Source: a virus. Taken from it: 39,000 nucleotides of DNA. A program made the translations under genes and the position numbers. The DNA is taken from the IMG/VR virus record IMGVR_UViG_3300032313_001324, positions 1 to 39,000 of that record. The stretch is one strand, 5' to 3'. This document shows, piece after piece, positions 5,311 to 36,500 of this stretch. The notes below the pieces were generated by a model, which worked only from the letters and a program-made list of their open reading frames with translations, searched no databases and was not told the origin of the DNA. Numbering within the stretch: position 1 is the first letter of the stretch; each line of letters begins with the position of its first letter.

Positions 5311-6921
5311 ATGAGCAAAATTATAGAATTTGGTCCTGAGGGACGTAGAAAATTAGCTAACGGTATTGACAAGTTAGCAAACGCAGTAACAGCTACATTA
5401 GGACCTAATGGCCGAAATGTTATTATAACTAATAATGGTATTCCTCAAAGTACAAAAGATGGAGTATCTGTAGCAAGATCTATTGTATTAGAAGATCCTA
5501 TTGAAGAGGTAGGGGTTCAAATGGTTAAACAAGCTGCTATTAAAACCGCAGATGTAGCGGGTGATGGAACTACAACATCTACTTTATTGGCCGCTGAAAT
5601 GATTAAAGCAGGATTAAAAGAATTAAATAATGAAATTAATGCTGTTGAATTAAAACGAGAAATGGATGTTGCTGTTAAACAAGTAATAGGAGCATTACAT
5701 GGTATTATTAAAGAAGATATCTCATCTGAGGAACAACTTAAACAAATTGCTACTATCTCAGCCAATAATGATCCAGAGATTGGAGAATTGATTGCTACAG
5801 CAATGCAGAAAGTAGGTCGTGAGGGTGTAGTATTCATTGAAGAATCTAAGAATGGTGAAACATATCTTGAAAACGTTGAGGGTATGCAGTTTGATCGCGG
5901 TTACAAGTCTCCATATTTTGTAACCGACAACAATTCAATGAGTACTACTATTAACGATGCTCTAGTTTTAATTGCTGATAAAAAGTTTACTACTGTAAAA
6001 GAATTATTACCTATTTTAGAGGCAGTATCTAACCAAAATAAGCCATTAGTTATCATTGCTGAAGATATTGATGGGGAAGCATTAGCTACTTTGATAGTAA
6101 ATAAAGCACGTGGTACTTTGAAAACCGTAGCTATTAAAGCACCTGATTTTGGAGATCGTCGTAAACTAATTCTTGAGGATATTGCTATTATGACAGGTGG
6201 TCAAGTGTTTAGTACAGAAAAAGGTATGAAACTAGACAAATTTAGTTGGGAATGGTTTGGTGAGGCTCGAGTAGTTACTGTTAATAAAGATGAAACAACT
6301 ATTATTGATGGTAAAGGAGATGAAGATAAAATTAAATCTCGTATTGAAGAACTTCAATCTCAAATTGAAAAATCAGTATCACCGTATGAAAAAGAAAAAC
6401 TTCAAGAACGCTTAGCTAAATTTATTGGAGGTGTTTCTATCATATATGTTGGTGGATTTACTGAAACCGAAATGAAAGAGAAGAAAGACCGTGTTGATGA
6501 TGCTCTCCAAGCTACCAAAGCCGCTCTTGAAGAAGGTATTGTTCCAGGTGGAGGTGCTGCTTTAATACATGCTCGTGAATATATTGATCGAACCAATATT
6601 GGATCAGACATTGTGTATAAAGCATGTGGTTCTCCATTTAAGAAAATCTTAACAAATGCGGGTATTGATCAAGAATATATTTATCATGCTAGTAATACCT
6701 TGTTAAATTCTGATCATTGGACAGGTTATAATCTAAAAACAGATGAGTTTGTTAATATGAAAGAAGCAGGAATTATTGATCCAGCTAAAGTAACTCGTAC
6801 CGCCCTTGAAAATGCGGCCTCAGTAGCAGGAACTGTATTACTAACAGAAGCTATTATAGTAGACAAACCAGACGATAAAAAAGATGAGGGTGGGTTTGGA
6901 GATATGATGGGAATGATGTAA
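5311..6921 (+). CDS. groEL: chaperonin GroEL
   Basis: A full-length 536-residue group I chaperonin subunit (bacterial ones are about 545). The ATP-binding parts are intact: TATLGPNGRNV, TKDGVSVA (D50, matching E. coli D52), AGDGTTT (85-89) and RVDDALQATKAALEEG, which carries the hydrolysis aspartate. VPGGGAAL follows. The tail ends GGFGDMMGMM, a Gly-Met-rich tail like those of cellular GroELs. The apical domain is complete. With groES just upstream this is a self-sufficient folding system, probably for an abundant or large phage protein that the host GroEL folds poorly. Complete groES-groEL pairs are uncommon in phages; origin from a bacterial host is likely but needs a tree. Confidence 0.96.
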   Translation: MSKIIEFGPEGRRKLANGIDKLANAVTATLGPNGRNVIITNNGIPQSTKDGVSVARSIVLEDPIEEVGVQMVKQAAIKTADVAGDGTTTSTLLAAEMIKAGLKELNNEINAVELKREMDVAVKQVIGALHGIIKEDISSEEQLKQIATISANNDPEIGELIATAMQKVGREGVVFIEESKNGETYLENVEGMQFDRGYKSPYFVTDNNSMSTTINDALVLIADKKFTTVKELLPILEAVSNQNKPLVIIAEDIDGEALATLIVNKARGTLKTVAIKAPDFGDRRKLILEDIAIMTGGQVFSTEKGMKLDKFSWEWFGEARVVTVNKDETTIIDGKGDEDKIKSRIEELQSQIEKSVSPYEKEKLQERLAKFIGGVSIIYVGGFTETEMKEKKDRVDDALQATKAALEEGIVPGGGAALIHAREYIDRTNIGSDIVYKACGSPFKKILTNAGIDQEYIYHASNTLLNSDHWTGYNLKTDEFVNMKEAGIIDPAKVTRTALENAASVAGTVLLTEAIIVDKPDDKKDEGGFGDMMGMM

Positions 6922-10506: not shown

Positions 10507-11955
10507 ATGAAAGAAAAATTTGGTTATTTACTTCCTGAACAGAGAAAGAAAATACTTCTCATTTGCGATGACATTAGAGTACATTCCGGCATAGCAACTG
10601 TTGCTAGAGAGATTGTAGTCCAAACATCCCACCATTTTAATTGGGTTAACCTTGCTGGAGCCGTTCAACACCCTGAAAAGGGTAAAAAATTAGATCTATC
10701 AGAAGATACTAATAAAAACTCAGGTATTACAGATTCATCTGTAGTATTATATCCTGTTGATGGTTACGGAGATACAACATTGATCCGCCAGTTAATTCAA
10801 TTAGAAAAACCAGATGCTATAATGTTGATTACCGATCCACGTTACTTTGTTTGGTTATTTTCTATTGAAAATGAAATAAGAAAACAAATTCCTATTACTT
10901 ATTTAAACATTTGGGACGATTATCCAGCACCCCTTTACAACCAACCTTATTATGAGGCATGTGATTTGTTAATGGGTATTTCTAAACAAACTGTAAACAT
11001 TAATAAGATTGTTTTAGGAGAGAAAGCCAATAGTAGAATCCTCAAATATGTTCCTCATGGATTAAATGATGAAATATTTAAACCGTTTGAAACAGGAAGC
11101 GATGAGGAAAAACATATGCTAGGGCTTAAGAAGCATATTTTTGGTAAACACGATCCTAAGTTTATTCTCTTTTTCAACTCAAGAAACATCCGTCGTAAAC
11201 AAATTCCAGACACATTACTTGCTTTTAGACACTTTTTAGATAAATTACCTAAAGAACAGGCAAAAGATTGTGTTTTAATGCTCCACACGGAACATATTAG
11301 TGAACATGGTACTGATTTACCAGCTGTTATAGAATTGTTATTTGGAGAAGATTATCCAAACAATATATTCTTCACTAATTTTAGAGGAAATCCTTTAGAT
11401 ATGGCATCTCTTTATAATATGTCTGATGCTCAAATTTTATTAACATCAAACGAAGGATGGGGATTAGCATTGACAGAAGCTATTCTATGTGGGAAACCAA
11501 TTATTGCTAATACTACTGGTGGTATGCAAGATCAGATGCGTTTTGAATTTGAAGATGGTTCTTGGATTGATTTTGATGAAAATTTCCCATCAAACCACAG
11601 AGGTACTTATAAAAAGCATGGTCGATGGGCATTCCCCGTTTATCCAACCTCTCGCTCAATCGTAGGTTCTCCTCCAACACCATATATTTTTGATGATAGA
11701 TGTGAGGCAGAAGATGCTGCCGATCGTATATTTGAAATATATAATATGAGTAAAGAAGAACGTATCGAAAGAGGTTTAGAAGGTAGAGAATGGGCCATAA
11801 GTGATGAGGCAGGATTTACTTCTAAACATCAGGCAAATAGAGTTATTGAAGCATTTAGTGAATTATTTTCTACATGGACCCCAAGAACTAAGTTTGAGTT
11901 CATCGATGCTAATAATTCCCCAAAACGTACCTTAAAACATAAATTAATATATTAA
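10507..11955 (+). CDS. glycosyltransferase, GT4-like (GT-B fold)
   Basis: A 482-residue GT-B glycosyltransferase. The N-terminal domain starts KKILLICDDIRVHSGIATVA, the Rossmann strand and acceptor-side Gly of GT4 enzymes. The C-terminal domain has PHGLNDEIFKP, FFNSRNIRRKQ and SNEGWGLALTEAILCGKPII, the E-x7-E-type nucleotide-sugar motif. It would transfer a sugar from a nucleotide donor; donor and acceptor cannot be told. It is the first gene of the island and overlaps the next by one base (TAATG). Confidence 0.88.
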   Translation: MKEKFGYLLPEQRKKILLICDDIRVHSGIATVAREIVVQTSHHFNWVNLAGAVQHPEKGKKLDLSEDTNKNSGITDSSVVLYPVDGYGDTTLIRQLIQLEKPDAIMLITDPRYFVWLFSIENEIRKQIPITYLNIWDDYPAPLYNQPYYEACDLLMGISKQTVNINKIVLGEKANSRILKYVPHGLNDEIFKPFETGSDEEKHMLGLKKHIFGKHDPKFILFFNSRNIRRKQIPDTLLAFRHFLDKLPKEQAKDCVLMLHTEHISEHGTDLPAVIELLFGEDYPNNIFFTNFRGNPLDMASLYNMSDAQILLTSNEGWGLALTEAILCGKPIIANTTGGMQDQMRFEFEDGSWIDFDENFPSNHRGTYKKHGRWAFPVYPTSRSIVGSPPTPYIFDDRCEAEDAADRIFEIYNMSKEERIERGLEGREWAISDEAGFTSKHQANRVIEAFSELFSTWTPRTKFEFIDANNSPKRTLKHKLIY

Positions 11956-13268
11956 TGAAACCGTTATTTGTAATAAGTTGTCCAATAGACACATACTCCG
12001 GGTATGGAAGTAGATCTCGTGATCTAGTTAAATCAATTATCGAATTAGATAAATATGATGTTAAAATTCTCCCCCAACGTTGGGGAGATACTAGCTGGGG
12101 ATTTATTAATGATAATCCTGAATGGGAATTTCTAAATAAATATGTTTTAACTAATCCCCAAATGAATCAACAACCAGATATTTGGGCCCAAGTAACAGTA
12201 CCTAATGAATTCCAACCAATAGGAAAATATAATATTGGGTTTACAGCAGGTATTGAAACCACAATAGCTAGCCCTGATTTTATTGAGGGGTGTAATAGAA
12301 TGAACCTAAATATTGTTTCATCTAAACATTCGGCCGAGGTTCTAAAAAGCAGTTCATTTGAGCAAAAAGACCAAAACACTAATCAAGTAGTAAGAACTAT
12401 TAAGTTAGAAAAACCGGTTGAAGTATTGTTTGAGGGTGCTGATTTGACTAAATATTTTATTATAGAGGATAAAGATCTTCCTGATAATGATTTAGTAGTA
12501 ACATTGGATGAAATACAGGAATCATTTGCTTATTTATTTGTAGGGCATTGGTTACCCGGAGATCTAGGAGAAGATAGAAAAAATGTGGGATTGCTTATTA
12601 AAGCTTTTTATGAAACATTTAAAAATAAATCTAAAAAACCGTGTTTAATCCTTAAAACATCTTCGGGACCATCATCTTATGTTGATAGAGAAAACATTTT
12701 AAAGAAAATTCAACAAATCAAAGAAACCGTTTCATCAAATAATTTACCTAATATTTATCTACTTCATGGTGAATTTACAGATGAGGAAATGAATTATTTA
12801 TATAATCATCCTAAAGTAAAAGCAATGGTTAATTTAACTAAGGGTGAGGGATTTGGTAGACCATTACTTGAATTTAGTTTAGTTAAAAAACCACTTATTA
12901 TTTCTTATTGGTCAGGTCAGACAGATTTCTTAGACAATGAGTTAGTATGTGGTGTAGGAGGGAATTTAACTAATGTTCATCCAAGTGCCGCTAATCAATT
13001 CTTACTCCAAGAAAGTCAATGGTTTTCTCCAGACCACGGTCAAGTAGGTTTTTATTTAAAGGATGTATTTGAAAATTATAAAAAATATACCGTTAATGCT
13101 AAACGTCAAACACATAAAAGTAAAACTAAATTCAGTTTTGATGCTATGAAAGAATTAATAGGTACTATTCTAGATAAAAACATACCTGAATTTCCTAAAC
13201 AGGTTCAAATCAAGTTACCTCAATTAAAGAAAATAGAGTTACCAAAATTAAAGAAAATCAATGAATAA
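11955..13268 (+). CDS. glycosyltransferase, GT4-like (second copy, divergent)
   Basis: The 437-residue product resembles its neighbour in architecture. It starts MKPLFVISCPIDTYSGYGSR with the Gly-rich N-terminal loop, and has FVGHWLPGDLGEDRKN and a donor-site motif KGEGFGRPLLEFSLVKKPLI in the C-terminal domain. The last 30 residues are a Lys/Pro/Leu repeat (two variants of LPxLKKIE/N), probably a flexible tail. It shares a mode of overlap with the next gene (8 bases). The two GT4-like genes may act in sequence on the same glycan or form a pair. Confidence 0.85.
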   Translation: MKPLFVISCPIDTYSGYGSRSRDLVKSIIELDKYDVKILPQRWGDTSWGFINDNPEWEFLNKYVLTNPQMNQQPDIWAQVTVPNEFQPIGKYNIGFTAGIETTIASPDFIEGCNRMNLNIVSSKHSAEVLKSSSFEQKDQNTNQVVRTIKLEKPVEVLFEGADLTKYFIIEDKDLPDNDLVVTLDEIQESFAYLFVGHWLPGDLGEDRKNVGLLIKAFYETFKNKSKKPCLILKTSSGPSSYVDRENILKKIQQIKETVSSNNLPNIYLLHGEFTDEEMNYLYNHPKVKAMVNLTKGEGFGRPLLEFSLVKKPLIISYWSGQTDFLDNELVCGVGGNLTNVHPSAANQFLLQESQWFSPDHGQVGFYLKDVFENYKKYTVNAKRQTHKSKTKFSFDAMKELIGTILDKNIPEFPKQVQIKLPQLKKIELPKLKKINE

Positions 13269-13707
13269 TCTAGTAATTTGTAATAAATGTGGATCAGACG
13301 CATGTGCTGTAGACGAGGTAAATAAAGATTTAAAAACATACTTCTGTTTTGGATGTGGATTTCAATCTAATTCATTAATGAAGGAAGGTGAGGAGTTTTA
13401 TGAACAACAACTCCTTACTCTTCCGGAGTTATATAAAGATTTACTTTATAAAGATGATAAGGGATATATGTGGATGCCATCATCAGTAAATGTTCCTGAT
13501 AAGGGAATGATATTTGCTTATGGTACTAATGCAGGACAATGGATGTGGTCTGCCGTAAAATCAGTTCCAGTAACTGAAGAAGAGGCATCTAAAGATCCTA
13601 TTTTGTCTAAAAATAAATCTAAGTTCAAAATGGATATGTCTACAATAAAACATTTTGCTGAACGTGACTTTATGGATGGTCTTTCGTACATTCAAGTCAT
13701 ACCATAA
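13261..13707 (+). CDS. zinc-ribbon phage protein of unknown function
   Basis: 148 residues. The N-terminus carries a four-cysteine ribbon: CNKCG (residues 7-11) and CFGCGF about 23 residues further. The remainder (YMWMPSSVNVPDKGMIFAYG, QWMWSAVKSVPV, FAERDFMDGLSYIQVI) is Trp/Met-rich and looks like a compact beta domain. It resembles conserved hypotheticals seen in other large phages but no function is known. It lies between glycosyltransferase genes and overlaps both, so it is translated with them; it might be an accessory or regulatory factor. Confidence 0.7.
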   Translation: MNNLVICNKCGSDACAVDEVNKDLKTYFCFGCGFQSNSLMKEGEEFYEQQLLTLPELYKDLLYKDDKGYMWMPSSVNVPDKGMIFAYGTNAGQWMWSAVKSVPVTEEEASKDPILSKNKSKFKMDMSTIKHFAERDFMDGLSYIQVIP

Positions 13708-14315
13708 TGATAAGCATAGCTATAACTGTATGTAATGAGGCTCAAGAGCTAAAAAATTTACTTGATTTTCTTCAAGAAAATGCTCTTCCTGACCAATATG
13801 AGTTAGTAATTCAAATCGATAAAGATAACTACACTAATGAAGTTATCGAAGTCATTGTTAATAGGGGTATTAAACATTATTTTTACCCCTTAAACAAGGA
13901 TTTTGCATCGTATAAAAACGAGTTATTTAAACATTGTAGTGGAGACTTTATTCTACAACTAGATGCAGATGAGTTAGTTAGTATAGATTTCCTTAGACTA
14001 ATCCCTCAAATAGTATTAGCAAATCCAGAAGTAGATTTATATTATATTCCACGTATAAACACTGTAGAGGGATTAACCGAGGAAGATATTCAAACATGGA
14101 GATGGAATGTTAAGGGTGATAGAATAAATTATCCTGATTATCAATCTCGTTTATATCGTAATTCATCTGATATTAAATGGGTAGGGAAAGTTCATGAACA
14201 AATTCAAGGTTTTAAACAGTTTACATTATTACCTGAGGCTGATGAATTATCACTTTTACATTACAAAACAATAGAAAAACAAAGAAAACAAAACCAGTTT
14301 TATGAAACGTTATGA
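13707..14315 (+). CDS. glycosyltransferase, GT2-like (GT-A fold)
   Basis: A short GT2 enzyme (202 residues). It has the first strand ISIAITVCNEAQELKNLLDFL, typical of family 2. The metal-binding motif is QLDADELV (DxD), and a downstream HxH-like region is RNSSDIKWVGKVHEQI. It is similar in type to LPS core GT2 enzymes with the WVGxVHE element. Length is short but the catalytic core is complete. It overlaps the next gene by four bases. Confidence 0.85.
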   Translation: MISIAITVCNEAQELKNLLDFLQENALPDQYELVIQIDKDNYTNEVIEVIVNRGIKHYFYPLNKDFASYKNELFKHCSGDFILQLDADELVSIDFLRLIPQIVLANPEVDLYYIPRINTVEGLTEEDIQTWRWNVKGDRINYPDYQSRLYRNSSDIKWVGKVHEQIQGFKQFTLLPEADELSLLHYKTIEKQRKQNQFYETL

Positions 14316-15124
14316 AAATAAAAGTAGCTCATTTTGATGCTAAAGTTTTTGAAAATAAACTTCAACATTTATCCCATTTAGATTTTTCATTATTTATTGA
14401 TACTCCTCCTCAATCACAAGAGGATTTATCCTCTATCAATATAATTTCATTCCAGGAACCAAATGAATATTTTGGTTTACATGATTGGGCTATTCAAAAT
14501 AAAGAATTATTCGATATTATTTTAACACAAAGTGATAAAGTACTAAATAATTGTGATAACGCTTTTTATCAACCTTTTGGACATACTTGGTTAAAATCAG
14601 ACCAATATGAAAAAGAACATAATAAGGAATTTAAGTTAGCTCATTTACAAGGTAAATTACTTAAAACATATGGTCATTCTTTAAGACATGAAGTAACAAC
14701 CAGACAAAATGAATTTAGTATTCCTACTAAATTTTATGAAACGTATGGAGATAGAAATAATATTGAGGATGCTCGTTTAGGTAAAGAATTTATTTTTGGG
14801 GATTCACAATTTGGAGTAGTAATTGAAAATACATCTCATAGGGGATATTTTACCGAAAAAATATTAGACTGTTTTTTATTAAAGACTATTCCCATTTATT
14901 GGGGTTGTTCGAATATAGGTGATTATTTTGATATAGACGGTATTATACCGTTTAATAACGTAGATGACTTAATTTATATGTCAAACAATTTAAATGAGGA
15001 CTACTACTCTTCAAGAAAAGAAATTATTAATAAAAATTGGAAATTGGCTTTAGAGTACGTAAATTACGAGCAAAATATAGTTAACACAATTACAAACATT
15101 TTTAAACACAACAACTTAATATGA
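14312..15124 (+). CDS. GT10-like (fucosyltransferase family) glycosyltransferase
   Basis: A 270-residue protein whose C-terminal half carries the GT10 donor-binding signature: FGVVIENTSHRGYFTEKILD followed by LLKTIPIYWGC. The N-terminal half is divergent, as usual for acceptor domains. GT10 members are alpha-1,3-fucosyltransferases and relatives that take GDP-linked 6-deoxy sugars. That would suit a cassette making unusual deoxy sugars next door. The donor here is an inference. Confidence 0.75.
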   Translation: MKIKVAHFDAKVFENKLQHLSHLDFSLFIDTPPQSQEDLSSINIISFQEPNEYFGLHDWAIQNKELFDIILTQSDKVLNNCDNAFYQPFGHTWLKSDQYEKEHNKEFKLAHLQGKLLKTYGHSLRHEVTTRQNEFSIPTKFYETYGDRNNIEDARLGKEFIFGDSQFGVVIENTSHRGYFTEKILDCFLLKTIPIYWGCSNIGDYFDIDGIIPFNNVDDLIYMSNNLNEDYYSSRKEIINKNWKLALEYVNYEQNIVNTITNIFKHNNLI

Positions 15125-16263
15125 AAAAAATATGGTACGCTCCTTATAAGTTTGAATCTTATGGGGAAGAAGAAATTAAAGCCGTAGAAGAAGCTCTACG
15201 TTCTGGATGGTTAGGTGGACAGGGCCCTAAATCAGTGGAATTTGAAGAAAAAATTGCTAAACGTTTTGGTAAAAAATATGGTATATTTGTTAATTCAGGC
15301 TCATCAGCCTGTTTATTAGCTATTGCTGCTTTAAATTTACCTAAAGGATGTAGAATTATTACTCCTGCTTGTACTTTTTCTACCACATTGGCTCCAATTT
15401 TACAACTTGGTTACAAACCAGTATTTGTAGATGTAGGATTAGATGATTATGTAGCCGTTATTGACCAAATATTAGATGCTATTACCCCTGATGTAAAAGC
15501 AATTATGTTACCTAACTTAATTGGTAATAAACCTGATTGGAAACGTTTACGTCAAGAAATTAAATTATTAGGTAGAACAGACATTATTTTGATTGAAGAT
15601 TCAGCTGATACAATTACTGAAACCCCTGAATCAGATGTTGCTACAACTAGTTTTTATGCCTCACACGTAATTACAGCAGGTGGTGTTGGTGGTATGGTAA
15701 TGTTTAATAATAAAAAACACGTTACATTAGCATTACAATACAGAGACTGGGGTCGTCTGGGGGATGATTCGGAAATTATGGATGATCGTTTTAATCACAT
15801 AGTAGACGGTATTCCTTATGATCATAAATTCCTATACTCAGTATTAGGTTATCATATGAAAGCTTGTGAAATGAATGCTGCTTTTGGATTGGTTCAATTA
15901 CATCGCTTTGAAAAATTCTCACAAATTAGACGAGAAAATATTGAACGTTATCTTGAAAATCTTAAAGGTGTAGGTGATTTAATTCTACCCGATGATTCAA
16001 TTCAACCTAATTGGTTAGCAATTCCTTTACAAACAGAAAAACGTTTTGAATTACTTAACTTCTTAGAAGATAATAATATTCAAACTAGAGTAACATTTGC
16101 TGGTAATGTAACTCGTCATCCTGCTTATAGAGAATTTCTACAGGACTTTAAAAACGCTGATACTATTATGAAAAATGGTTTCTTGTTGGGTGCACATCAT
16201 GGAATGACAGTTGATGATGTAGATTACGTTTGTGATAAAATTAAAGAATTTTTTAATAAATAA
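15121..16263 (+). CDS. DegT/DnrJ-family sugar 3-dehydratase-like enzyme, His at the PLP-lysine site
   Basis: A 380-residue fold-type I PLP enzyme. Family marks include SGWLGGQGPKSVEFEE, NSGSSACLLA and LIEDSAD with D160. At the position of the Schiff-base lysine the motif SFYASHVITAG carries His182. This substitution marks the PMP-dependent 3-dehydratases (RfbH/E1 and ColD) that remove the C3 hydroxyl of 4-keto-6-deoxy sugars instead of transaminating. YRDWGR and YDHKFLYSVLGYHMK also look like the RfbH group. The cysteines that bind the iron-sulphur cluster in RfbH/E1, normally just after DWGR, are absent, so it may act like ColD or differently. It is adjacent to the aldolase and ThDP enzyme genes below. 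Confidence 0.8.
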   Translation: MKKIWYAPYKFESYGEEEIKAVEEALRSGWLGGQGPKSVEFEEKIAKRFGKKYGIFVNSGSSACLLAIAALNLPKGCRIITPACTFSTTLAPILQLGYKPVFVDVGLDDYVAVIDQILDAITPDVKAIMLPNLIGNKPDWKRLRQEIKLLGRTDIILIEDSADTITETPESDVATTSFYASHVITAGGVGGMVMFNNKKHVTLALQYRDWGRLGDDSEIMDDRFNHIVDGIPYDHKFLYSVLGYHMKACEMNAAFGLVQLHRFEKFSQIRRENIERYLENLKGVGDLILPDDSIQPNWLAIPLQTEKRFELLNFLEDNNIQTRVTFAGNVTRHPAYREFLQDFKNADTIMKNGFLLGAHHGMTVDDVDYVCDKIKEFFNK

Positions 16264-16266
16264 AAT

Positions 16267-17064
16267 ATGAACAAAAGAGAATTTAAATGTTCCTCAGTTA
16301 TAACAGATATGGTTGAGAACCATGGTCTAATTGGTATTAAGACTAGTTTTGAGGATGAAGGAGCTACTTTTAATGAAGTTCTTAGATTAAAAGAAATATG
16401 TAATCAAGCTAAAACTAAATTAACCCTAAAAATAGGAGGCCCAGAAGCATCAAGAGATATCCAGGATTCTTCTATAATTGGGGTAAAAGGATTAGTAGCA
16501 CCTATGGTTGAATCAGGGTTTGGATTAAGTAAATTTATTGGATCCGTTAATTCTAATTTAACTAAAGATGTTATTAACTCTTTAGAATTAATTGTTAATA
16601 TTGAAACTATTCAGGCTTATAAAAATATTGATGAAATTTTAAATGTTAAAGAAAGCAAAGAATTATATGCTATTACTGTAGGTAGGGTTGATTTTGTTTC
16701 ATCTATGGGAAAAGATAGATCATTTGTAAATTCTCCTGAGATGTTAAAAATGACTAAAGATATCTTTACTAAAGCTAAAAATATTGGTTTAACAGTTAAT
16801 TTAGGGGGAGCAATAACAACGGATTCATATGATTTTTTAAATGAGTTATATAAGGAAGGTCTTTTAGATAAATTTGAAACTAGATATGCTATTTATGATC
16901 CTTCTAAAGCATTAAAAAATTTAGGTAAAGCTTTAGCTAAAGGACAGTTATTTGAGTATGAGTGGTTAATGAATAAAAGAGAATCATATCAAAAACAATC
17001 AGATAAAGAAATTAAACGCATTCAAATGATTCAAGATCGAATAAATCAATCAACCAATATTTAA
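16267..17064 (+). CDS. HpcH/HpaI aldolase/citrate lyase-like protein
   Basis: 265 residues, TIM-barrel type. Motifs include FEDEGATFNEVLRLKEI, LKIGGPEA, GLVAPMVESGFGL (metal-site Glu), IVNIETIQAY, ITVGRVDFVSSMG and LGGAITTDSYDFL. These correspond to the HpcH/HpaI and citryl-CoA-lyase-like superfamily, which cleaves or forms C-C bonds with pyruvate or acyl-CoA enolates. The C-terminal 35 residues are Lys/Gln-rich and helical. Here it sits between the dehydratase-like and ThDP-enzyme genes. It could extend a sugar with a two- or three-carbon unit or provide the pyruvate-derived unit; this is a hypothesis. Confidence 0.7.
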   Translation: MNKREFKCSSVITDMVENHGLIGIKTSFEDEGATFNEVLRLKEICNQAKTKLTLKIGGPEASRDIQDSSIIGVKGLVAPMVESGFGLSKFIGSVNSNLTKDVINSLELIVNIETIQAYKNIDEILNVKESKELYAITVGRVDFVSSMGKDRSFVNSPEMLKMTKDIFTKAKNIGLTVNLGGAITTDSYDFLNELYKEGLLDKFETRYAIYDPSKALKNLGKALAKGQLFEYEWLMNKRESYQKQSDKEIKRIQMIQDRINQSTNI

Positions 17065-17065
17065 A

Positions 17066-17461
17066 ATGGAATATAAAGAATTGGTTTTAAAAGATGAATC
17101 AAATACTATAGCTATCGATTTTGATGGTGTTATTCATAGTTTTGAATTAGGTTATCATGATGGAACTATATATGGTACACCATTACCCGGTTCTATAGAC
17201 AGTATAAAACGTTTATATAAAAAATTCAAATTAGTTATATATACTGCTAAAGCTAAATCCGATAGACCATTAATTAATGGAAAAACAGGAATAGAATTAG
17301 TTTGGGAATGGCTAGGAAAATACAATATTGATTCGTATATTTCTGAAGTAACAGCAGAAAAACCTAGAGCAATTTGTTATATTGATGATAAAGCCATTAG
17401 GTTTGTTAACTGGGATCAAACATTAAATGAATTATTAGATTTTACCGATGAAAGTTTCTGA
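17066..17461 (+). CDS. HAD-superfamily phosphatase-like protein
   Basis: A 131-residue compact HAD fold. Motif I is IAIDFDGVIH with both aspartates. Motif II is VIYTAKA (Thr), and Lys plus acidic motif III/IV are in EKPRAICYIDDKAI. Such small HADs remove phosphate from sugars or nucleotides. It overlaps the next gene by 14 bases and follows the aldolase gene by one base, so it belongs to the cassette. The substrate is not known. Confidence 0.8.
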   Translation: MEYKELVLKDESNTIAIDFDGVIHSFELGYHDGTIYGTPLPGSIDSIKRLYKKFKLVIYTAKAKSDRPLINGKTGIELVWEWLGKYNIDSYISEVTAEKPRAICYIDDKAIRFVNWDQTLNELLDFTDESF

Positions 17462-19181
17462 TTTAGTTATAAAATTTTTAGAAGATAAAAACGTATCTCA
17501 TGTTTTTACAGTATCCGGAGGCGGTTCTATGCATTTGGTCGATTCATTAGGTAAAGCTGAAAAACTAAAATATGTTTGTGTTCATCATGAACAAGTAGCT
17601 GCTATGGCTGTAGAGGGTTTTTATAGATTAAAAGAAGAGGTTAGTGCAGCTATTGTAACAACAGGGCCTGGAGGTACTAATACATTAACTGGTGTATTAG
17701 GATGTTGGTTAGATAGTATACCCTCAATTTTTATCTCAGGCCAAGTAAATTTATCCCAAACTTCAAAAGATACAGGTTGTAGACAAATAGGTGATCAAGA
17801 ATTTGATATTGTGTCTACAGTAAAAAGTATGACTAAATATGCTGTAATGATTAAAAATAAAAATGATATTTTATATGAATTAGAAAAAGCATATGAATTA
17901 GCTACTACCGGAAGACCTGGACCAGTTTGGATAGATATTCCTTTAGATATTCAAGGGGAAAATGTTGAATTAGAATTATTGAAAAAACATTGGTCTTTTA
18001 ATGAAAAATTATCTCCTACTAAAAAAGAACTTAATAAATTCTATGAATTATTAAATTTATCTAAAAAACCTTTATTTGTTGTTGGAAATGGTATTCGTTT
18101 ATCTAAAAGTTATGAATTATTTAATAACTTACTTAAACAATCAAATATTCCCGCATTAACAGGAGTACATTCTGGAGTAGATTGTATTGATAATACTTAT
18201 GAATATTACGCTGGAAGAATTGGGGTTTTAGGTCAAATTACTTCAAATACTATAGTTCAAGAAGCAGATCTATTAATTATATTAGGTAGTAGACTTAATA
18301 TAAAAACAACTGGATATAACATCCCAGGATTTGCTCCAAATGCTAAAAAAATATTTGTTGATATTGATATCAATGAAATAGACAAGCATAAATTTAAAAT
18401 AGATTTAGGTATAGTTTCTGATTTGAATGAATTTTTAAAAAATTTACAAATAGAAAACCTAAATATTAATGAATGGCGAAATTTTGTTAAACAAGAAAGA
18501 ACTAAACAGGTTTATTTTTATCCTAAACATAAGAATATGGAAAAATACGCTAGTGCTTATTATTTTTCTCATAAATTAAATCAATATACCGGTAATAAAC
18601 CCATTATTACTAGTGATGGTTCTGCCCACGTAGTAATATTACAAACATTTACCTTAAAAAAAGACCAACGTTTATTTACAAATGTAGGTTGTGCTAGTAT
18701 GGGATATGGTTTACCCGCAGCTATTGGGGCGGCTTTTTCTAATAATAAAGAAGATGTAATTTGTATTGAAGGAGATGGTAGTTTACAAATGAATATTCAA
18801 GAATTACAAACTTTATTTCATTATAATCTACCTGTTAAATTGTTTGTTATTAATAATGATGGTTATTTATCTATTAAAATTACTCAAGAAAACTTTTTTA
18901 ACGGTAGAGAAGTAGCTTCTGGAAAAAATAGTGGAATTAGTTTCCCTAATTTAGAAAAATTATGTACAGCTTATGGTTTACCGTATGTTAGTATAACTCA
19001 TAATGATCAAATGGATGAAAAAATCCAACAAACACTTAACACTTCTGGCCCTATTGTATGTGAATTGTTTACATATCCTTATGAAAAACATGAACCAAAA
19101 GTAGTTCATAAAGGAATGGATGCTAATGGAAAAATTATTCCTGGACAATTAACTGATATGTTTATATCTGAAGAATTTTAA
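17448..19181 (+). CDS. ThDP-dependent enzyme, acetolactate-synthase-like
   Basis: 577 residues with the three-domain pyruvate-oxidase/acetolactate-synthase architecture. The N-terminal domain has HHEQVAAMAVEGF, where E48 is the cofactor-activating glutamate, and TTGPGGTNTLTGV. A middle Rossmann domain follows. The C-terminal ThDP motif begins at IEGDGSLQMN (GDG at 442-444) and ends in the NND loop. Such enzymes condense pyruvate-derived acetyl units with ketones or aldehydes. In bacterial polysaccharide loci a homologue, YerE, adds a two-carbon branch to a 4-keto-3,6-dideoxy sugar. The adjacent 3-dehydratase-like gene makes this the best guess. It is too divergent to assign as a classical branched-chain amino acid enzyme. 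Confidence 0.85.
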   Translation: MKVSDLVIKFLEDKNVSHVFTVSGGGSMHLVDSLGKAEKLKYVCVHHEQVAAMAVEGFYRLKEEVSAAIVTTGPGGTNTLTGVLGCWLDSIPSIFISGQVNLSQTSKDTGCRQIGDQEFDIVSTVKSMTKYAVMIKNKNDILYELEKAYELATTGRPGPVWIDIPLDIQGENVELELLKKHWSFNEKLSPTKKELNKFYELLNLSKKPLFVVGNGIRLSKSYELFNNLLKQSNIPALTGVHSGVDCIDNTYEYYAGRIGVLGQITSNTIVQEADLLIILGSRLNIKTTGYNIPGFAPNAKKIFVDIDINEIDKHKFKIDLGIVSDLNEFLKNLQIENLNINEWRNFVKQERTKQVYFYPKHKNMEKYASAYYFSHKLNQYTGNKPIITSDGSAHVVILQTFTLKKDQRLFTNVGCASMGYGLPAAIGAAFSNNKEDVICIEGDGSLQMNIQELQTLFHYNLPVKLFVINNDGYLSIKITQENFFNGREVASGKNSGISFPNLEKLCTAYGLPYVSITHNDQMDEKIQQTLNTSGPIVCELFTYPYEKHEPKVVHKGMDANGKIIPGQLTDMFISEEF

Positions 19182-19190
19182 TAAAAAAAT

Positions 19191-19952
19191 ATGATACTAT
19201 ATAAAAAGCAAACTAATTTAAATTCATTTTTTCAAAAATCAACCCCCACATTATCAGACTTAGCTAATAAATTTGAAACTGATAAAGGTACAGAAAACTC
19301 TTTAAATTTATCCTGGGGGAAGGATTATCCTCATCATTCATGTATGCATTACACAAAAACGTATGAAAAATATATGGAAATAAAAAGAAATGATGAAATT
19401 TCTATGTTAGAAATAGGTGTGTGTGATAAAAGATTTCCTTATGCTTCGATTAAAATGTGGATGAGTTATTTTAAAAATATTGATTTATATGCTGTTGATA
19501 ATTTTTGGGGACACACAGTTGAAGATAAATTAACAGATATAAAGGACATTAATAATAATGGAGTAAATTTTATCTATGCTGATCAAGGTAGTTTTAATGA
19601 TTGGGATGAAATTAATCATTGCTATCCAAATAAATTTGATTTTATTGTTGAAGATGGAAGTCATTGGCCTAATCATATGATGATTAGTTTATGGAAATCT
19701 ATTAATATAATTAAAAAAGATGGTTATTTTTTTATGGAAGATATACAAAATCCATTAAAGTCTAGAGGTTGGTTTAAATATGATAATTCTTTACTAGCTC
19801 AAGAACTATTAGAAACTTTAGCTACAAATAAATTAGAGTCTAGTTTTTTAAATACTCAACAAAATCAAGACATACAAAATAATTATGATTTAGTTGAATT
19901 AGTATTAGACCCTAATAAAGTTAATTATTTAGCAGTGTTTAAAAAGAAATGA
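19191..19952 (+). CDS. class I SAM methyltransferase (TylF/macrocin O-methyltransferase-like)
   Basis: 253 residues. DLANKFETDKGTEN, EISMLEIGVCD and IKMWMSYFKNIDLYAVD match the SAM-binding part of the O-methyltransferase group that includes TylF-type and macrocin methyltransferases. DFIVEDGSHWPNHM is the acidic metal/substrate motif. A sugar hydroxyl is the likely target in this cluster. Its 3' end overlaps the epimerase gene (ATGA). Confidence 0.78.
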   Translation: MILYKKQTNLNSFFQKSTPTLSDLANKFETDKGTENSLNLSWGKDYPHHSCMHYTKTYEKYMEIKRNDEISMLEIGVCDKRFPYASIKMWMSYFKNIDLYAVDNFWGHTVEDKLTDIKDINNNGVNFIYADQGSFNDWDEINHCYPNKFDFIVEDGSHWPNHMMISLWKSINIIKKDGYFFMEDIQNPLKSRGWFKYDNSLLAQELLETLATNKLESSFLNTQQNQDIQNNYDLVELVLDPNKVNYLAVFKKK

Positions 19953-20719
19953 AAATTTTAATAACTGGGGCTAATGGTTATATAGGTAAAACTTTATATA
20001 ACTCTTTAAATACAAAGTACGATGTAATACCTTTGTCTAGAAAAGAATTAGACGTAACCAATTTAAAACAAGTTAAAGATTATTTAAAACATAAATATTT
20101 TGATGTTGTTATACATTGTGCTGTTGAAGGCGGTCTTAGATTAGAACCAGAACATTCTTATATCCTGGATAGTAATTTGAAAATGTATTATAATTTATTG
20201 GAATGTAAAGATCATTTTAATAAATTTTTCTATTTTGGCTCTGGGGCTGAAGAGCAGGATACATTTTATGGGTTAAGTAAAAAAGTACTAAACCAATCTA
20301 TCCAGGATAAAGATAATTTTCATAACGTAAGAATATTTGCTGTATTTGATGAAAACGAATTAGAATCTAAATTTGTTAAAACAAACATTTATAATTATAT
20401 TACCCGAAAAGATGTACAAATATTTCAAAATAAATACATGGATTTTTTCTATATGGATGATTTAATTACACTAATGAATTATTGTATTACAACTAATAAT
20501 TTGCCAAAAGAAATAAATTGTAGTTATAATTATTCTCCTACGTTATATGATGTTGCTCAAATTATTAACAATTTAAGTGATTATAAAGTAAATATTAATA
20601 TAGAAGAATGGGGTATGGCTCCAATATTTAATGGTAGTTTTACTGATTTAGGATTAACTTATATTGGATTAGAACAAGGTATAAAGAATGTTTATAATAA
20701 ATTAAAATATGAATATTAA
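19949..20719 (+). CDS. NAD-dependent epimerase/reductase (extended SDR)
   Basis: 256 residues. GANGYIGKT (residues 7-15) is the Rossmann GxxGxxG motif of extended short-chain dehydrogenases, and FYGLSKK provides the catalytic YxxxK pair. The serine upstream of it in FFYFGSGAEE fits the active-site Ser. It would epimerise or reduce a nucleotide-keto sugar. In the yersiniose and colitose pathways a reductase of this class completes the sugar. It is shorter than dTDP-glucose dehydratases. Confidence 0.8.
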   Translation: MKILITGANGYIGKTLYNSLNTKYDVIPLSRKELDVTNLKQVKDYLKHKYFDVVIHCAVEGGLRLEPEHSYILDSNLKMYYNLLECKDHFNKFFYFGSGAEEQDTFYGLSKKVLNQSIQDKDNFHNVRIFAVFDENELESKFVKTNIYNYITRKDVQIFQNKYMDFFYMDDLITLMNYCITTNNLPKEINCSYNYSPTLYDVAQIINNLSDYKVNINIEEWGMAPIFNGSFTDLGLTYIGLEQGIKNVYNKLKYEY

Positions 20720-21632
20720 AATATTAATCCATGTAATGCCATGGGATATCGATTATGCCTTATTAATGTTTACTCAATTAAAAAAATCCAAATATTATCT
20801 TCCAAAAGATGTTAATATTATTTTAGATATTGAATTAAATTTAACAAGTTATTTATACAATTGGGAAGAAAGTAAATTATCTAAAGATTATTTTATTGAT
20901 AAGTTTAATACTTTACTTTTATTACTAGGTGACTATAAAGTAAATACTTTTATATATGAGGGAAATGAATTATATGGCCATTTTGACCACCAGAAAAAAT
21001 TTATATCACCCGACACTGATTACTATATGGGTATATGCCCTGATATTTATTTTAGTGAATATGCCTTAACATATTTAATAGAATCAGCAAAACAAATAAC
21101 TAATAAATATTTTGTTATTACTCCTCAAGTACATAAGGTAGGTGATGATGATTGGGATAGAATTGTAGATCCAAAATATTTAGATGTTCCTTATTCGGAT
21201 TATTTAAAAGTAGATATCTTTGATATAAGATATAATAATAAAATAGATAATCAAGAAAGATATTTAGAACCATTACATAAAAGTAAATTCGCTGGTTGGT
21301 TTGATTTATATAGTAAATCTTTTTATGAAGAATTATGTCCTGTTCAAAAAGAATGGAATGGATATGGCCCTTGGGATTATTACTCTATGGTAATAACTGA
21401 TTATTGTAAATCTAAAGGAGTAGATGTTCAACAATATGTTTTAAGAGGAGAAACAATATGGATGTACCCATCAGGACCATTATTGGAAAATGGGGCTAAT
21501 GGTTTTACTCAGTATTACAGAGATAGATTAAAAACAAACATTGTACCTAATCAAAGAGAAGAATTTGAATCTAAGATTGAAGAATATGTTAATAAAACCC
21601 TTATAGACCTAAAAAATAAAAATATCATTTAA
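20709..21632 (+). CDS. probable GT-A-fold glycosyltransferase, 307 aa
   Basis: The start overlaps the epimerase gene by 11 bases. Landmarks are SPDTDYYMGICPDIYFSEYAL, with a DxD-like acidic element, and FAGWFDLYSKSFYEEL. WNGYGPWDYYSMV and YVLRGETIWMYPSGPL suggest an acceptor/donor-site region shared with phage and bacterial GT2-type enzymes. I recognise a glycosyltransferase style rather than a named family; it could also be a sugar-binding or other transferase. It lies in a run of transferase genes, and its stop overlaps the next ATG by one base. Confidence 0.55.
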   Translation: MNIKILIHVMPWDIDYALLMFTQLKKSKYYLPKDVNIILDIELNLTSYLYNWEESKLSKDYFIDKFNTLLLLLGDYKVNTFIYEGNELYGHFDHQKKFISPDTDYYMGICPDIYFSEYALTYLIESAKQITNKYFVITPQVHKVGDDDWDRIVDPKYLDVPYSDYLKVDIFDIRYNNKIDNQERYLEPLHKSKFAGWFDLYSKSFYEELCPVQKEWNGYGPWDYYSMVITDYCKSKGVDVQQYVLRGETIWMYPSGPLLENGANGFTQYYRDRLKTNIVPNQREEFESKIEEYVNKTLIDLKNKNII

Positions 21633-23050
21633 TGAAAAAAGAATTAGTTATAGCAGCCTACGATAGAGATTATAGTTGGATTAATAATCTTAATGAGGAT
21701 GTTCTAGTTACAGTATATAGAAAAGGTGATAATCCTTTACTTAAAGATGAAATATTGATTAATCCAAATGTTGGAAGAGATGTTCATACTTTTTTTTATC
21801 ATTTGTATAATAAATACGAAACACTATCTGATGTTACTTTTTTTAGCCAAGATTATCCTTTTGATCATGTACACAATTATGTTGATATTATAAATGGGGA
21901 TAAAACCCTATGGAATCAACAAGCAAGACAAAATATAGATGGATGTTGGTTTTTTTCACACTATGATTTTGTATTATGTAACAAAACAGGAGCCCCTCAC
22001 CATCCTGGGGTAGGATTAGATATACTTGATTTAGAAAAATTATGGAATGACATATTTCAAATTCCTTGTCCCTCAAATATCGTATTCCCATCAGCCGGTC
22101 ATTTTGCTATTTCGAAAGAACATGCCCATATTTTTCCAAAAGAATTTTATAAAAAAATAGTAGATATACTTGAAACCCAACCTAATTCCCCATGGGAACT
22201 TGAACGTTTAGAACCTTATATTTTTTTTAACCCATCAACATTAAAATCTTTTCCTAAAAAGAATGCTATAGTTATACCAGCTTATAATAATTTACAAACA
22301 CATGAACAATATAAAAAGTGTATTTCAACATGGGAATTTTATTGTAAAAAACATAATATAGATTTTCATATAATAGAAGGAGAAAAATATTATACAGATT
22401 TTCCTGACTATGCTGCTATGTGTTATGATAGATGGATAGACATCAATTTTCTTATTTCAGAATATGATAGAATAACCTTTGTCGATGCTGATACTTTTAT
22501 AAGATGGGATTCACCTGATATGAATAAGATTTTTGAAGAAAATAACCTAGATATAGTAGTTGTTCCTGACCAAGGTGGACCTCAAACCGCACAATACCAT
22601 ATTAATCAATGGTTAGGTTTTAAACCTAATGTTTTTTCTTTTATAAAGAATTATTTTAATGCTGGGTTTGTTTCTATGAAAACACACCACTTCCATAAAC
22701 TTCAAGAACAAATAGTTTTATATAAAGATTATTATTATACTCATAAAGATATTGAAGGTCATGTAAAAGGTATTGGTAAAAAAGGAGGAGTAAGGATTGA
22801 TGCTATGGATCAAACAGCGGTTAATATAATTTTACAAGAATTATTTCCATATAACATTACATTCATTCAAAAAGATTTTAATTGTCAAGTACCCTATCTG
22901 TTTAATGGAGATGAAGATTTTAGAAATAATTACTCTAGCTTTAAATGGTTAAATGAGGGTTATATATTCCACCTAGGATCTAGTACATTAGCGTATATGA
23001 ATCTAGTAAATGAGTTTTGGTCGTACTTTAACGAAAATTATAATTATTAA
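21632..23050 (+). CDS. DUF3431-glycosyltransferase fusion protein
   Basis: 472 residues, two parts. The first about 110 residues match the DUF3431 style: VIAAYDRDYSWINNL, the invariant NVGRDVHTFFYHLYN and VTFFSQDYPFDH. The second part (from about residue 210) is a GT8/GT-A-like glycosyltransferase. It has KNAIVIPAYNN, DRITFVDADTFIRWD (DxD), MDQTAVNIIL and a closing IFHLGSST. DUF3431 often accompanies glycan genes and is likely sugar-active. Joining it to a GT in one phage protein is unusual. The protein follows the 20709 gene with a one-base overlap. Confidence 0.7.
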   Translation: MKKELVIAAYDRDYSWINNLNEDVLVTVYRKGDNPLLKDEILINPNVGRDVHTFFYHLYNKYETLSDVTFFSQDYPFDHVHNYVDIINGDKTLWNQQARQNIDGCWFFSHYDFVLCNKTGAPHHPGVGLDILDLEKLWNDIFQIPCPSNIVFPSAGHFAISKEHAHIFPKEFYKKIVDILETQPNSPWELERLEPYIFFNPSTLKSFPKKNAIVIPAYNNLQTHEQYKKCISTWEFYCKKHNIDFHIIEGEKYYTDFPDYAAMCYDRWIDINFLISEYDRITFVDADTFIRWDSPDMNKIFEENNLDIVVVPDQGGPQTAQYHINQWLGFKPNVFSFIKNYFNAGFVSMKTHHFHKLQEQIVLYKDYYYTHKDIEGHVKGIGKKGGVRIDAMDQTAVNIILQELFPYNITFIQKDFNCQVPYLFNGDEDFRNNYSSFKWLNEGYIFHLGSSTLAYMNLVNEFWSYFNENYNY

Positions 23051-33567: not shown

Positions 33568-36500
33568 ATGAGAAAATTATTAAGTATACTATTATTTTTG
33601 TTTAGTTTTTTAGCAGTTAAGGGTACCCATATGATGGGTGCAGACATGAGTTATCAGTGTTTGGGTAACGGAAAGTATAAAATAATTGCCAAAGTTTATC
33701 GAGACTGCCGAGGGGTTGCTTTATCACCTGTTAGTTTTGGTGCGTTTGCAGGAACAAATGGTAGTAATCAGTGTGGAAGTATCACATTAACTGGGTTGAC
33801 AAGGACGGGAATTAGAGATGTTACAACCAGATGCTCGTCATCTTCAAATCCATGCAACCCCAGTAATGTGGGATTTACGGGTAAAGGTGTAGAGGAACAC
33901 ACATTTGAAGCAACTATTGATTTTACAACTTCACCCTTAAATCAGTTTGTCGGTAAAGCTGCTTGTTGTGAAATTACCTTTTATACGGGTCAGTGTTGTA
34001 GGAATGGTGGAATTACAACAGGTGCTGCTAATCAAGACTTTTACACTACCTGTATGATTAATATTTGTAATATCAACAAAACAGATAATAAGTGTAACAG
34101 TTCACCACAACTCTCCAACGAGCCTGTGGGTTTTTTGTGTTGTAACACCCCTTGGTATTACAATAACGGAGCGGTAGATACGGTCGACTTTGATTCTATT
34201 TCATATAAATTGGTTAAAGGTCTTAGTGGTTTACCTACAACTGCGACCAATTATTCTTCACCATTTACGGAGAGATATTTTATGACGCCGTTTTGTATTC
34301 CCCCCAGCGCTACTAACATTAAGTGTACACCTAATGTAAATGTTAATCCACCACGGGGTATATATTTTGATGAAGGTAATGGAGATATTATTACAACACC
34401 TACCAAATGCGACGAGGTTCCAATTTTAGTTATTGAACAGACGGAATATCGAAAAGATACCACAGGTAAATGGTTGGTGATCGGTCGAACCCGAAGGGAC
34501 ATGCAGATGTGGGTTATTGATGAGTGTGGATTTAATAAGCCTCCTATTATCAAAGGTCCTTTTGTTTGGAATTTATGTGAAGGAGAAAAAATTTGTAAGA
34601 AGATAAAAATTGAGGATGAGACCTTTACACCGAACCAAACGGTTCCTGATACCGTTTTAGCGACTTGGAATGGTGGTATACCTGGAGCTACGTTTGAAGT
34701 GGTAGATCCAACCAAGCGTGAAAAAGAATACGAGTTTTGCTGGGAAACAAAGGTTGGCGACGCCTCTGATGTATCGTATACGTTTACCGTGAGAGCGACT
34801 GACCAACACTGTACACCTCCGATGATTTCAATTCGTTCATTTAAAGTTAAGGTAAACCCTAAAGCCGAAGCCGAAAGAAAATATGATACTTTAAAATGTG
34901 GTCGTTTTGCATTTACCAGTGTAACACCTGGTGGATTTAAAGGAACACCATCACATCAATGGAGTGTTAGAGATAGTTCAGGTAGTAAAGAATTAAAATT
35001 CAGTGGTAGAAAAAGTGATACAATGAACTATTACTACGGTGGTAAATATATTGTTGTCCACACGATTAATAACTCTTTCAACTGTCCAACCATTTATAGA
35101 GATACGGTAGACCTTCCTCAACCTCCTAAAGTTATATTAGCAGACCTTGATAGTTTTGCATGTTTTGGTTCAACATTTAAATTATCACCTAAAATAATTG
35201 CAGGTAAAACCCCATTCAGCTATCGCTGGAACACCGGAGATACAACATCATCTAAAGAAATTAAAAATTTTAGACGGGACACTACACTAATCCTTCGAGT
35301 AAAAGATGGGGATGGGTGTTTATTTAGTGATACAGTATTTACACCTGTTAAACCACTACCTGTCGTAAATCTTGGACCTAATAAGATCATCTGTACTTAT
35401 GATAATATCATGTTTGATGCTCAACATTCTGATACTATGTTTTATCTATGGAGTACAGGTGATACAACACGTAGTATTGTTACTAACTTTAAAGGTAATT
35501 ATTCTGTGATTGTTACGGATACAATTTACTCATGTGAGGGATATGATACTGTATTTTTAACCGTAAATGACACTATAAAGTCGATTGCAGGTATTAATCA
35601 GAGAGTTTGTGACAGAGATATCTTTAAAATTAAAGCATCTCATACCCCATCTAATTTAACCGCACAATACCAATGGATTGGAACTGGTGGATTATCTCAA
35701 TATGATATTAAAGCAAATATTAAAAATTCACCATATCAATATATTCTTAGAACCACAATAAATCAAAATGGAATTAGTTGTTTTGATTTTGACACCACAA
35801 ACATTAGTATAAAACCGTTACCAAATCTTTCTTGGAAAAAATTAGACCCCGAATGTTATGATTATGGTAATATTTGGTTACAAGATTTCTTTAATAAACC
35901 ACATACATTAGGAACTTGGGATATTTGGAGTGGAACTCTGAAAGATAAAAAACCTCCTGTATATGGTAATACACCTGATAATGGAAGATTCTATTTTAAT
36001 ATGTCAGATATTGATAATAATAAAATTCAAGGAGGTAATAATCTTTCTGTTAAAATATATGGTAGATTTAACGACACTAATGGATGTCACAATATTGATT
36101 CTACTATTCAGGTTATTAATGGAACACCACTTATTAAGTTATTTACAAAACAATTCTGTCAAGATTTTGGTGAAATAGATTTATTTAAACAGATTGTTGA
36201 CATACCAAGAAGTAAATCAGGTAACACTTTAAAATGGAATGTTTTAAATTACCCTGGTAGTGTTAACAAGGATATGTTACTGGTAAACAAAAACCCATTT
36301 GGAGTTGGAGATTGGTGGTTTAAGTTTGGTGGACCGACTGAAGATTATTATATGGGTAATTACCAATTCCAACTTTGTGTTGAAAATGTAATAAGCGGTT
36401 GTTTTGATTGTGATACCACTAATATCGAAATTATATCGGAACCCGATGTTAGAATTGAAACCATTCCTAACCTTTGTATTAACTCAGGTGAGTTATTAAA

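Follow-up and report, generated by a model that had tools for sequence, protein, structure and literature searches.

A cassette of sugar genes in a viral genome

The DNA analysed here (hereafter the window) is a stretch of 39,000 nucleotides, positions 1 to 39,000 of the virus record IMGVR_UViG_3300032313_001324, in which a DNA polymerase, a clamp loader and a GroEL-like gene are also encoded. The subject is a cassette of four genes on its forward strand, named below by their start positions (15121, 16267, 17066 and 17448), for which a first-pass annotation had proposed a novel route to a branched or deoxy sugar. All four open reading frames were recovered as described there, in the same direction and almost abutting. 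They are part of a longer run of sugar genes in that direction, with glycosyltransferases on the 5' side and a methyltransferase-like gene, a short-chain dehydrogenase/reductase (SDR) and more glycan genes on the 3' side. The original limits of the cassette, 15121-19181, proved too tight, since the RmlD/epimerase-type SDR (hereafter SDR2; 19949..20719, + strand; PF01370, 5e-18) belongs to it too: it follows the thiamine diphosphate (ThDP) enzyme gene in nearly all phage cassettes and in some operons of green sulphur bacteria described below. Pfam models identified DegT in 15121 (6e-68), HpcH_HpaI in 16267 (2e-10) and all three TPP-enzyme domains in 17448; no Pfam match was obtained for 17066.

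Gene 15121 (15121..16263, + strand, 380 aa) encodes a predicted DegT-fold enzyme, a putative 3-dehydratase of nucleoside diphosphate-4-keto-6-deoxyhexoses. Among solved proteins, the E1/RfbH dehydrase was the best match (191 bits, 32–34% identity) and ColD, the GDP-4-keto-6-deoxymannose 3-dehydratase, the second (138 bits, about 28%). The alignment pairs His182 with the catalytic His of E1/RfbH, a site marked by the mutant entry 3bb8 (H220K). This clearly agrees with the earlier claim that His stands at the pyridoxal phosphate (PLP)-lysine site; no lysine is found there. The [2Fe-2S] cysteines of RfbH are missing, again as first noted: in the sub-clade of the window (the window and 11 relatives), His is present and every iron-sulphur Cys position is lost in 12 of 12 proteins. 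Full-length RfbH-type copies in sister cassettes display the His together with the complete Cys set. The predicted structure (mean predicted local distance difference test score, pLDDT, of 81, with residues 213-246 poor) was compared with the PDB, and E1 dehydrase 3bcx came out on top (34% identity, Z 42.3, root-mean-square deviation, rmsd, 3.8 over 357). Ordinary sugar aminotransferases score nearly as high, and the fold by itself is thus not decisive. The His-type DegT protein and RfbH replace each other in cassettes with otherwise the same genes, which argues that both do the same job.

Judged from its sequence, 15121 is an RfbH-lineage sugar 3-dehydratase, though not filed as RfbH proper, its iron-sulphur cysteines being lost. 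It shares with ColD the replacement of the PLP lysine by His and the lack of the cluster. By analogy with ColD, the enzyme without its cluster would probably work through pyridoxamine phosphate (PMP) recycled with glutamate. As 15121 is nearer to RfbH/E1 than to ColD, it would seem to have lost the cluster independently of ColD.

Gene 17448 (17448..19181, + strand, 577 aa) encodes a YerE-like ThDP-dependent enzyme. In searches against solved proteins, in which a profile search was included, JanthE came first (8rph, 8e-114), followed by 5ahk (7e-80), which we take to be YerE of Pseudomonas protegens, and then by acetolactate synthases. JanthE (PDB 8rph-8rpj), the nearest solved relative, is a YerE-like enzyme coupling aldehydes to ketones (PMC12188165, PMC12247030). 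A branch with an SH-aLRT value of 99 set six acetolactate synthases apart in a tree of 57 proteins, where every cassette enzyme sided with JanthE; the YerE-like assignment of the first-pass annotation is therefore upheld. The sequence displays the ThDP motif GDG at 442, where JanthE has CDG, and the HHEQ motif with the activating Glu (E48). The acceptor-site Trp464 of acetohydroxyacid synthase (AHAS; AHAS II numbering) is replaced by Thr479, and by Thr or Ser across the cassette enzymes. The JanthE hot-spot residues Y297 and K567 are retained as Y290 and K551, whereas V121, Y268 and P293 correspond to D116, L261 and K286. From these features, 17448 is predicted to be a carboligase acting on a ketone and giving a tertiary alcohol. 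Among the matches listed in annotated phage records, all were below 60% identity and most were acetolactate synthases, by annotation or recognisably so, on DNA of the host or of a contaminant.

Gene 16267 (16267..17064, + strand, 265 aa) is assigned to the HpcH/HpaI fold by Pfam and by its predicted structure (pLDDT 96), which matches HpaI, YfaU and SbnG with an rmsd of about 2.5 over 195 residues and Z 18-19.6. As the barrels of pyruvate kinases reach 18 too, the match is to the fold superfamily. The equivalents of the metal ligands, E113 and D142, align with the Q-x-E and D of YfaU and are invariant in 32 phage copies. Aldolases of the HpcH/HpaI type join pyruvate and aldehydes to give 4-hydroxy-2-oxo acids. 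Such acids, and not pyruvate, are taken as donors by ErwE, the YerE-like enzyme of erwiniose synthesis in Pectobacterium (PMC12247030), and for this reason 16267 is proposed to make the donor of 17448, as a possibly phosphorylated 4-hydroxy-2-oxo acid. Gene 17066 (17066..17461, + strand, 131 aa) encodes a small capless protein, assigned to the HAD family from its DxD motif and its match to phrog_1238 (2e-18) and proposed to be a phosphatase acting on the aldolase product; the motif reads DFDG in every intact phage HAD of the cassette.

In one relative the two proteins are fused into a single polypeptide of 377 residues (L067:6345-7478, + strand), with 39% identity to the HpcH and 46% to the HAD of the window. 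The same fusion is carried by L068, which is 99.98% identical to L067 over 11,290 bases, so that both represent one phage lineage. The fusion adjoins a cytidylyltransferase of the CTP_transf_3 family, which activates ulosonic acids. A hybrid cassette was found in L029 (9740-12513, + strand), where a NeuB-family synthase stands directly before the ThDP gene, and an SDR (of the type called SDR1 below), a diverged small HAD and a gene resembling 3-dehydroquinate synthase (DHQS) follow it. Fusion, neighbouring cytidylyltransferase and NeuB-type gene together suggest a 3-deoxy-2-oxo acid as the product of HpcH and HAD; the fusion and the NeuB-type gene thereby favour their proposed part in making the donor.

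Distribution and gene order of the cassette

Relatives were collected with the HpcH protein, and with an alignment of it, as queries, and the gene order was read by tblastn; the counts rest on metagenomic viral contigs, many of which are fragments. HpcH relatives were found in 58 viral contigs. The usual order is a 4,6-dehydratase (not always present), HpcH, then either HAD or an SDR (SDR1) with an AroB-like cyclase, then ThDP and SDR2, with RfbH or the His-type DegT gene nearby. This wider cassette is found in most of the contigs, and the four genes of the window are contiguous in L004, in line with a cassette that recurs elsewhere. The original observation is thus correct and larger than stated. 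No match to the HpcH protein was obtained in annotated phage records, and a scan of genome contigs with it returned a pyruvate kinase match only (L012), which served just as an entry to its phylum. An Ilyobacter homologue was considered as a cassette member and set aside, as it sits among catabolic genes; it served as outgroup. In L011 (8001-10907, + strand), HpcH, HAD and ThDP genes are split over several frames, by sequencing errors or decay.

The first-pass annotation had seen no genes for the nucleotide-sugar precursor. This holds for the window and for its three nearest relatives (L002-L004), in whose available records, one of them of 154,840 bases, no 4,6-dehydratase was found. It does not hold for most other phage relatives, which encode their own RmlB-like 4,6-dehydratase. 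The latter is nearest to the dTDP-glucose 4,6-dehydratase model but under its cut-off (304/365 bits), so that the nucleotide is not fixed by it.

Outside viruses, 98 genomes of the class of genome G068 were searched, and seven of them have the HpcH gene. The chlorosome protein CsmA is encoded in 7/7 genomes with HpcH and in 0/14 control genomes, which identifies them as green sulphur bacteria (Chlorobiia). Their operon reads, with variations, RfbF-RfbG-(MBL fold)-RfbH-ThDP-filling-HpcH-SDR2, where the filling is SDR1 with DHQS or a HAD-IIA protein and where the MBL-fold protein between RfbG and RfbH is found in some operons. A complete CDP-sugar operon from RfbF to HpcH is present in L070, L071, L073 and L074, except that RfbH was not seen in L071. 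CDP-glucose synthase and 4,6-dehydratase are thus encoded together with the cassette enzymes, which ties these to CDP-4-keto-3,6-dideoxyglucose. An RfbF-RfbG-HpcH arrangement was also found in Novosphingobium.

Interchangeable genes between HpcH and ThDP

The space between HpcH and ThDP is filled in two ways. It measures 382-504 bases with the single HAD gene of intact phage copies, and at least 1.6 kb with SDR1 and the AroB-like gene (DHQS). For the product of the latter, the match to TIGR04425 ('AroB-related putative sugar phosphate phospholyase (cyclizing)') stays under the cut-off, and the PDB matches are 3-dehydroquinate synthases. At 97% HpcH identity, 54 non-redundant loci were retained, 49 of them with a ThDP gene nearby. 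The filling is SDR1 with DHQS in 34 of these, HAD in 14 and both in one (L029). A strict mutual exclusion of HAD and DHQS was considered and is broken by this last locus, in which the small HAD is diverged. As the HAD-IIA of Chlorobiia belongs to a different family from the small HAD of phages, a phosphatase has replaced SDR1 and DHQS at least two times, in different guises. Plasmid searches with ThDP and DHQS proteins gave distant matches only, mostly annotated as acetolactate synthase or aroB among the matches listed.

At least 9 changes of filling are needed on the HpcH tree, 5 of them forced by starred branches, and at least 10 on the SDR2 tree, where 7 are so forced; on the ThDP tree the minimum is just 3. 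Pairs of loci with different fillings share on average 77% identity in HpcH and 48% in ThDP, against 76% and 71% in pairs with the same filling. For L035 and L052, identity reaches 93% in HpcH, 89% in the 4,6-dehydratase and 86% in SDR2, and drops to 50% in ThDP. The window and L002 display a similar picture, with 92% in DegT, 87% in HpcH, 80% in SDR2 and 49% in ThDP. Tree changes and pairwise identities clearly indicate that the ThDP gene travels with the filling, as expected if the filling alters the substrate of the ThDP enzyme. That modules are exchanged while the genes around them stay nearly identical suggests that a change of sugar is selected for. The position of JanthE Y268 was tried as a marker of the two types: it is L in most HAD-type enzymes and H in all phage DHQS-type ones, L029 included, but it fails in L064, L069 and Chlorobiia.

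Proposed pathway and alternatives

The favoured reading, to which a probability of about 0.6 is given, sees in the window a phage operon that builds a C4-branched 3,6-dideoxy sugar by adding a multi-carbon chain at C4 of a 4-keto-3,6-dideoxy sugar nucleotide. The starting compound would be a nucleotide-activated 4-keto-6-deoxyhexose, which the host supplies in the case of the window and the phage RmlB-like dehydratase in most relatives; its 3-OH would be removed by the His-type PMP enzyme 15121. The HpcH-fold enzyme 16267 would join a sugar aldehyde, which probably bears a phosphate, to pyruvate or a similar nucleophile, and the HAD 17066 would strip the phosphate from the resulting 4-hydroxy-2-oxo acid. 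The ThDP enzyme 17448 would then decarboxylate this acid and add the acyl unit at C4, to the ketone, after which SDR2 may reduce a keto group, possibly the one on the branch. The adjoining glycosyltransferases would attach the sugar to a phage or host glycan. Family, fold, active-site His, missing Cys, ThDP clade, conservation of the cassette, swapping of its modules and the HpcH-HAD fusion are seen in sequences and their comparison; every substrate, the final acceptor and the order of events from condensation to ketoreduction are those that we infer. Branching at C4 of a 3-deoxy-4-keto sugar is considered quite likely, the supply of the donor by the HpcH enzyme is somewhat favoured, and the action of the HAD before the ThDP enzyme is given slightly less than even odds.

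The yersiniose pathway (RfbF/G/H and YerE) resembles this scheme in its CDP-4-keto-3,6-dideoxyglucose route, its 3-dehydratase with active-site His and its YerE-like carboligase. It differs in that an HpcH-fold enzyme with HAD, or with SDR and AroB-like cyclase, is always added here, that the 3-dehydratase of the window lacks the iron-sulphur ligands and that the operon is found in phages. Erwiniose synthesis resembles it in donor chemistry, in that ErwE takes 4-hydroxy-2-oxo acids as donors for a CDP-4-keto-3,6-dideoxy sugar (PMC12247030); the source of its donor is undescribed in the literature found, whereas an HpcH enzyme is proposed here. The earlier interpretation is thus partly supported: a branched deoxy sugar pathway with added aldolase and HAD stands, while the two-carbon branch of yersiniose is unlikely and a longer 2-oxo-acid donor is preferred.

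In its two-carbon form, the alternative is that 17448 might simply use pyruvate, as YerE does (PMC12247030), that SDR2 reduces an acetyl branch and that the products of HpcH and HAD lead to another sugar of the same glycan, for example an ulosonic acid. The fusion in L067 supports it, as it lies by a CMP-sugar-type cytidylyltransferase and no ThDP gene was found in the whole locus, so that HpcH and HAD can function together without a ThDP enzyme. On the other hand, HpcH adjoins ThDP in nearly all phage and Chlorobiia cassettes, the ThDP lineage shifts with the filling beside HpcH, and JanthE accepts long donors (PMC12188165); this alternative is judged improbable. Still less probable is a role of 15121 as an aminotransferase-like or lyase variant that performs no 3-dehydration, such as a PMP enzyme modifying a 4-keto sugar, which would leave the 3-OH in place on the branched 6-deoxy sugar formed. 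The modest identity to E1 and ColD and the lost iron-sulphur ligands would fit such a variant, but the invariant His at the lysine site and the replacement of canonical RfbH in otherwise identical cassettes argue against it. An anabolic acetolactate synthase carried as auxiliary metabolic gene among unrelated lipopolysaccharide (LPS) genes is hardly credible. NCBIfam lists acetolactate synthase models first, all of them below cut-off (370/538 bits). This candidate was discarded on the proximity to JanthE, the tree with AHAS outside the clade and the replacement of Trp464; moreover, Phe and Ala substrate positions are altered, no gene for a regulatory subunit follows 17448 and the sugar-operon context is conserved.

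Besides the ThDP-free locus and the possible use of pyruvate, several points weigh against the branched-sugar reading. The HpcH subfamily shares no more than 13-16% identity with characterised aldolases and may lack their catalytic His and Arg, so its reaction could differ; in the region of His45 and Arg70 of HpcH/HpaI, where the sequence alignment stops short, FEDEG and KIGG motifs were seen by eye instead. JanthE and 5ahk sit on long branches in the ThDP tree. Joint transfer of adjacent genes (hitch-hiking) may yield the same pattern of ThDP co-swapping. SDR2 is retained with either filling, even though closure of a ring by the cyclase would use up the ketone of the branch; the model set out next leaves this retention unexplained.

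The two fillings allow a wider, speculative and on balance unlikely model, a modular machine for higher branched sugars in which a shared front end (3-dehydratase and HpcH) feeds two swappable modules. The HAD with its own ThDP lineage would give an open-chain branch; SDR1, the AroB-like phospholyase and the other ThDP lineage would give a carbocyclic branch, the phosphorylated chain being transferred first and the ring then closed with loss of phosphate. Both fillings would remove phosphate, the HAD by hydrolysis and the phospholyase by elimination and ring closure. The elimination would leave a ketone, which would explain the constant pairing with SDR1, and ring closure would consume one, so that the cyclase should act after ThDP. 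With the HAD acting before ThDP and the cyclase after it, the two ThDP lineages would have to take different donors, which fits exclusion and co-swapping. Phages would change their surface sugar by such swaps. Carbocyclic sugars (caryose, bradyrhizose) occur in bacterial LPS (PMC9671505, PMC9026286), and that the AroB-like cyclase of sibling cassettes could form such a ring is a guess.

More than 200 YerE-like enzymes are predicted, most without known product, and few C-branched sugars made by them are known (PMC12247030). The cassette offers a candidate source of their long 2-oxo-acid donors, SDR2 is a candidate for the ketoreduction step reported as uncharacterised in the yersiniose pathway (PMC4753412), and the orphan AroB-related family TIGR04425 gains a context. 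A literature search of incomplete coverage found no paper on the phage cassette. A branched-sugar pathway of this kind would be present in phages, and its recurrence, with an interchangeable middle, in dozens of related viruses and in several green sulphur bacteria points to a whole group of sugars yet to be characterised.

Among the neighbouring genes, the upstream glycosyltransferases (10507..15124, + strand; two GT4-like, one GT2 and one GT10-like) likely use the sugar, and the same genes lie upstream in L002-L004. A predicted S-adenosylmethionine methyltransferase-like protein (19191..19952, + strand; phrog_21658, 4e-9) is accessory, being found only in some cassettes and at varying position. 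Within the same glycan run, a protein of 472 aa (21632-23050, + strand) has an N-terminal DUF3431 domain and no PHROGs match. The GroEL-like chaperonin is encoded at 5311-6921 (+ strand; phrog_5725, 9e-155). A protein of 1512 aa (33568-38106, + strand) displays a weak PKD domain and, at its C-terminus, a CHU_C domain for type IX secretion (PF13585, 9e-13), which is unusual for a phage protein and hints at a Bacteroidota host.

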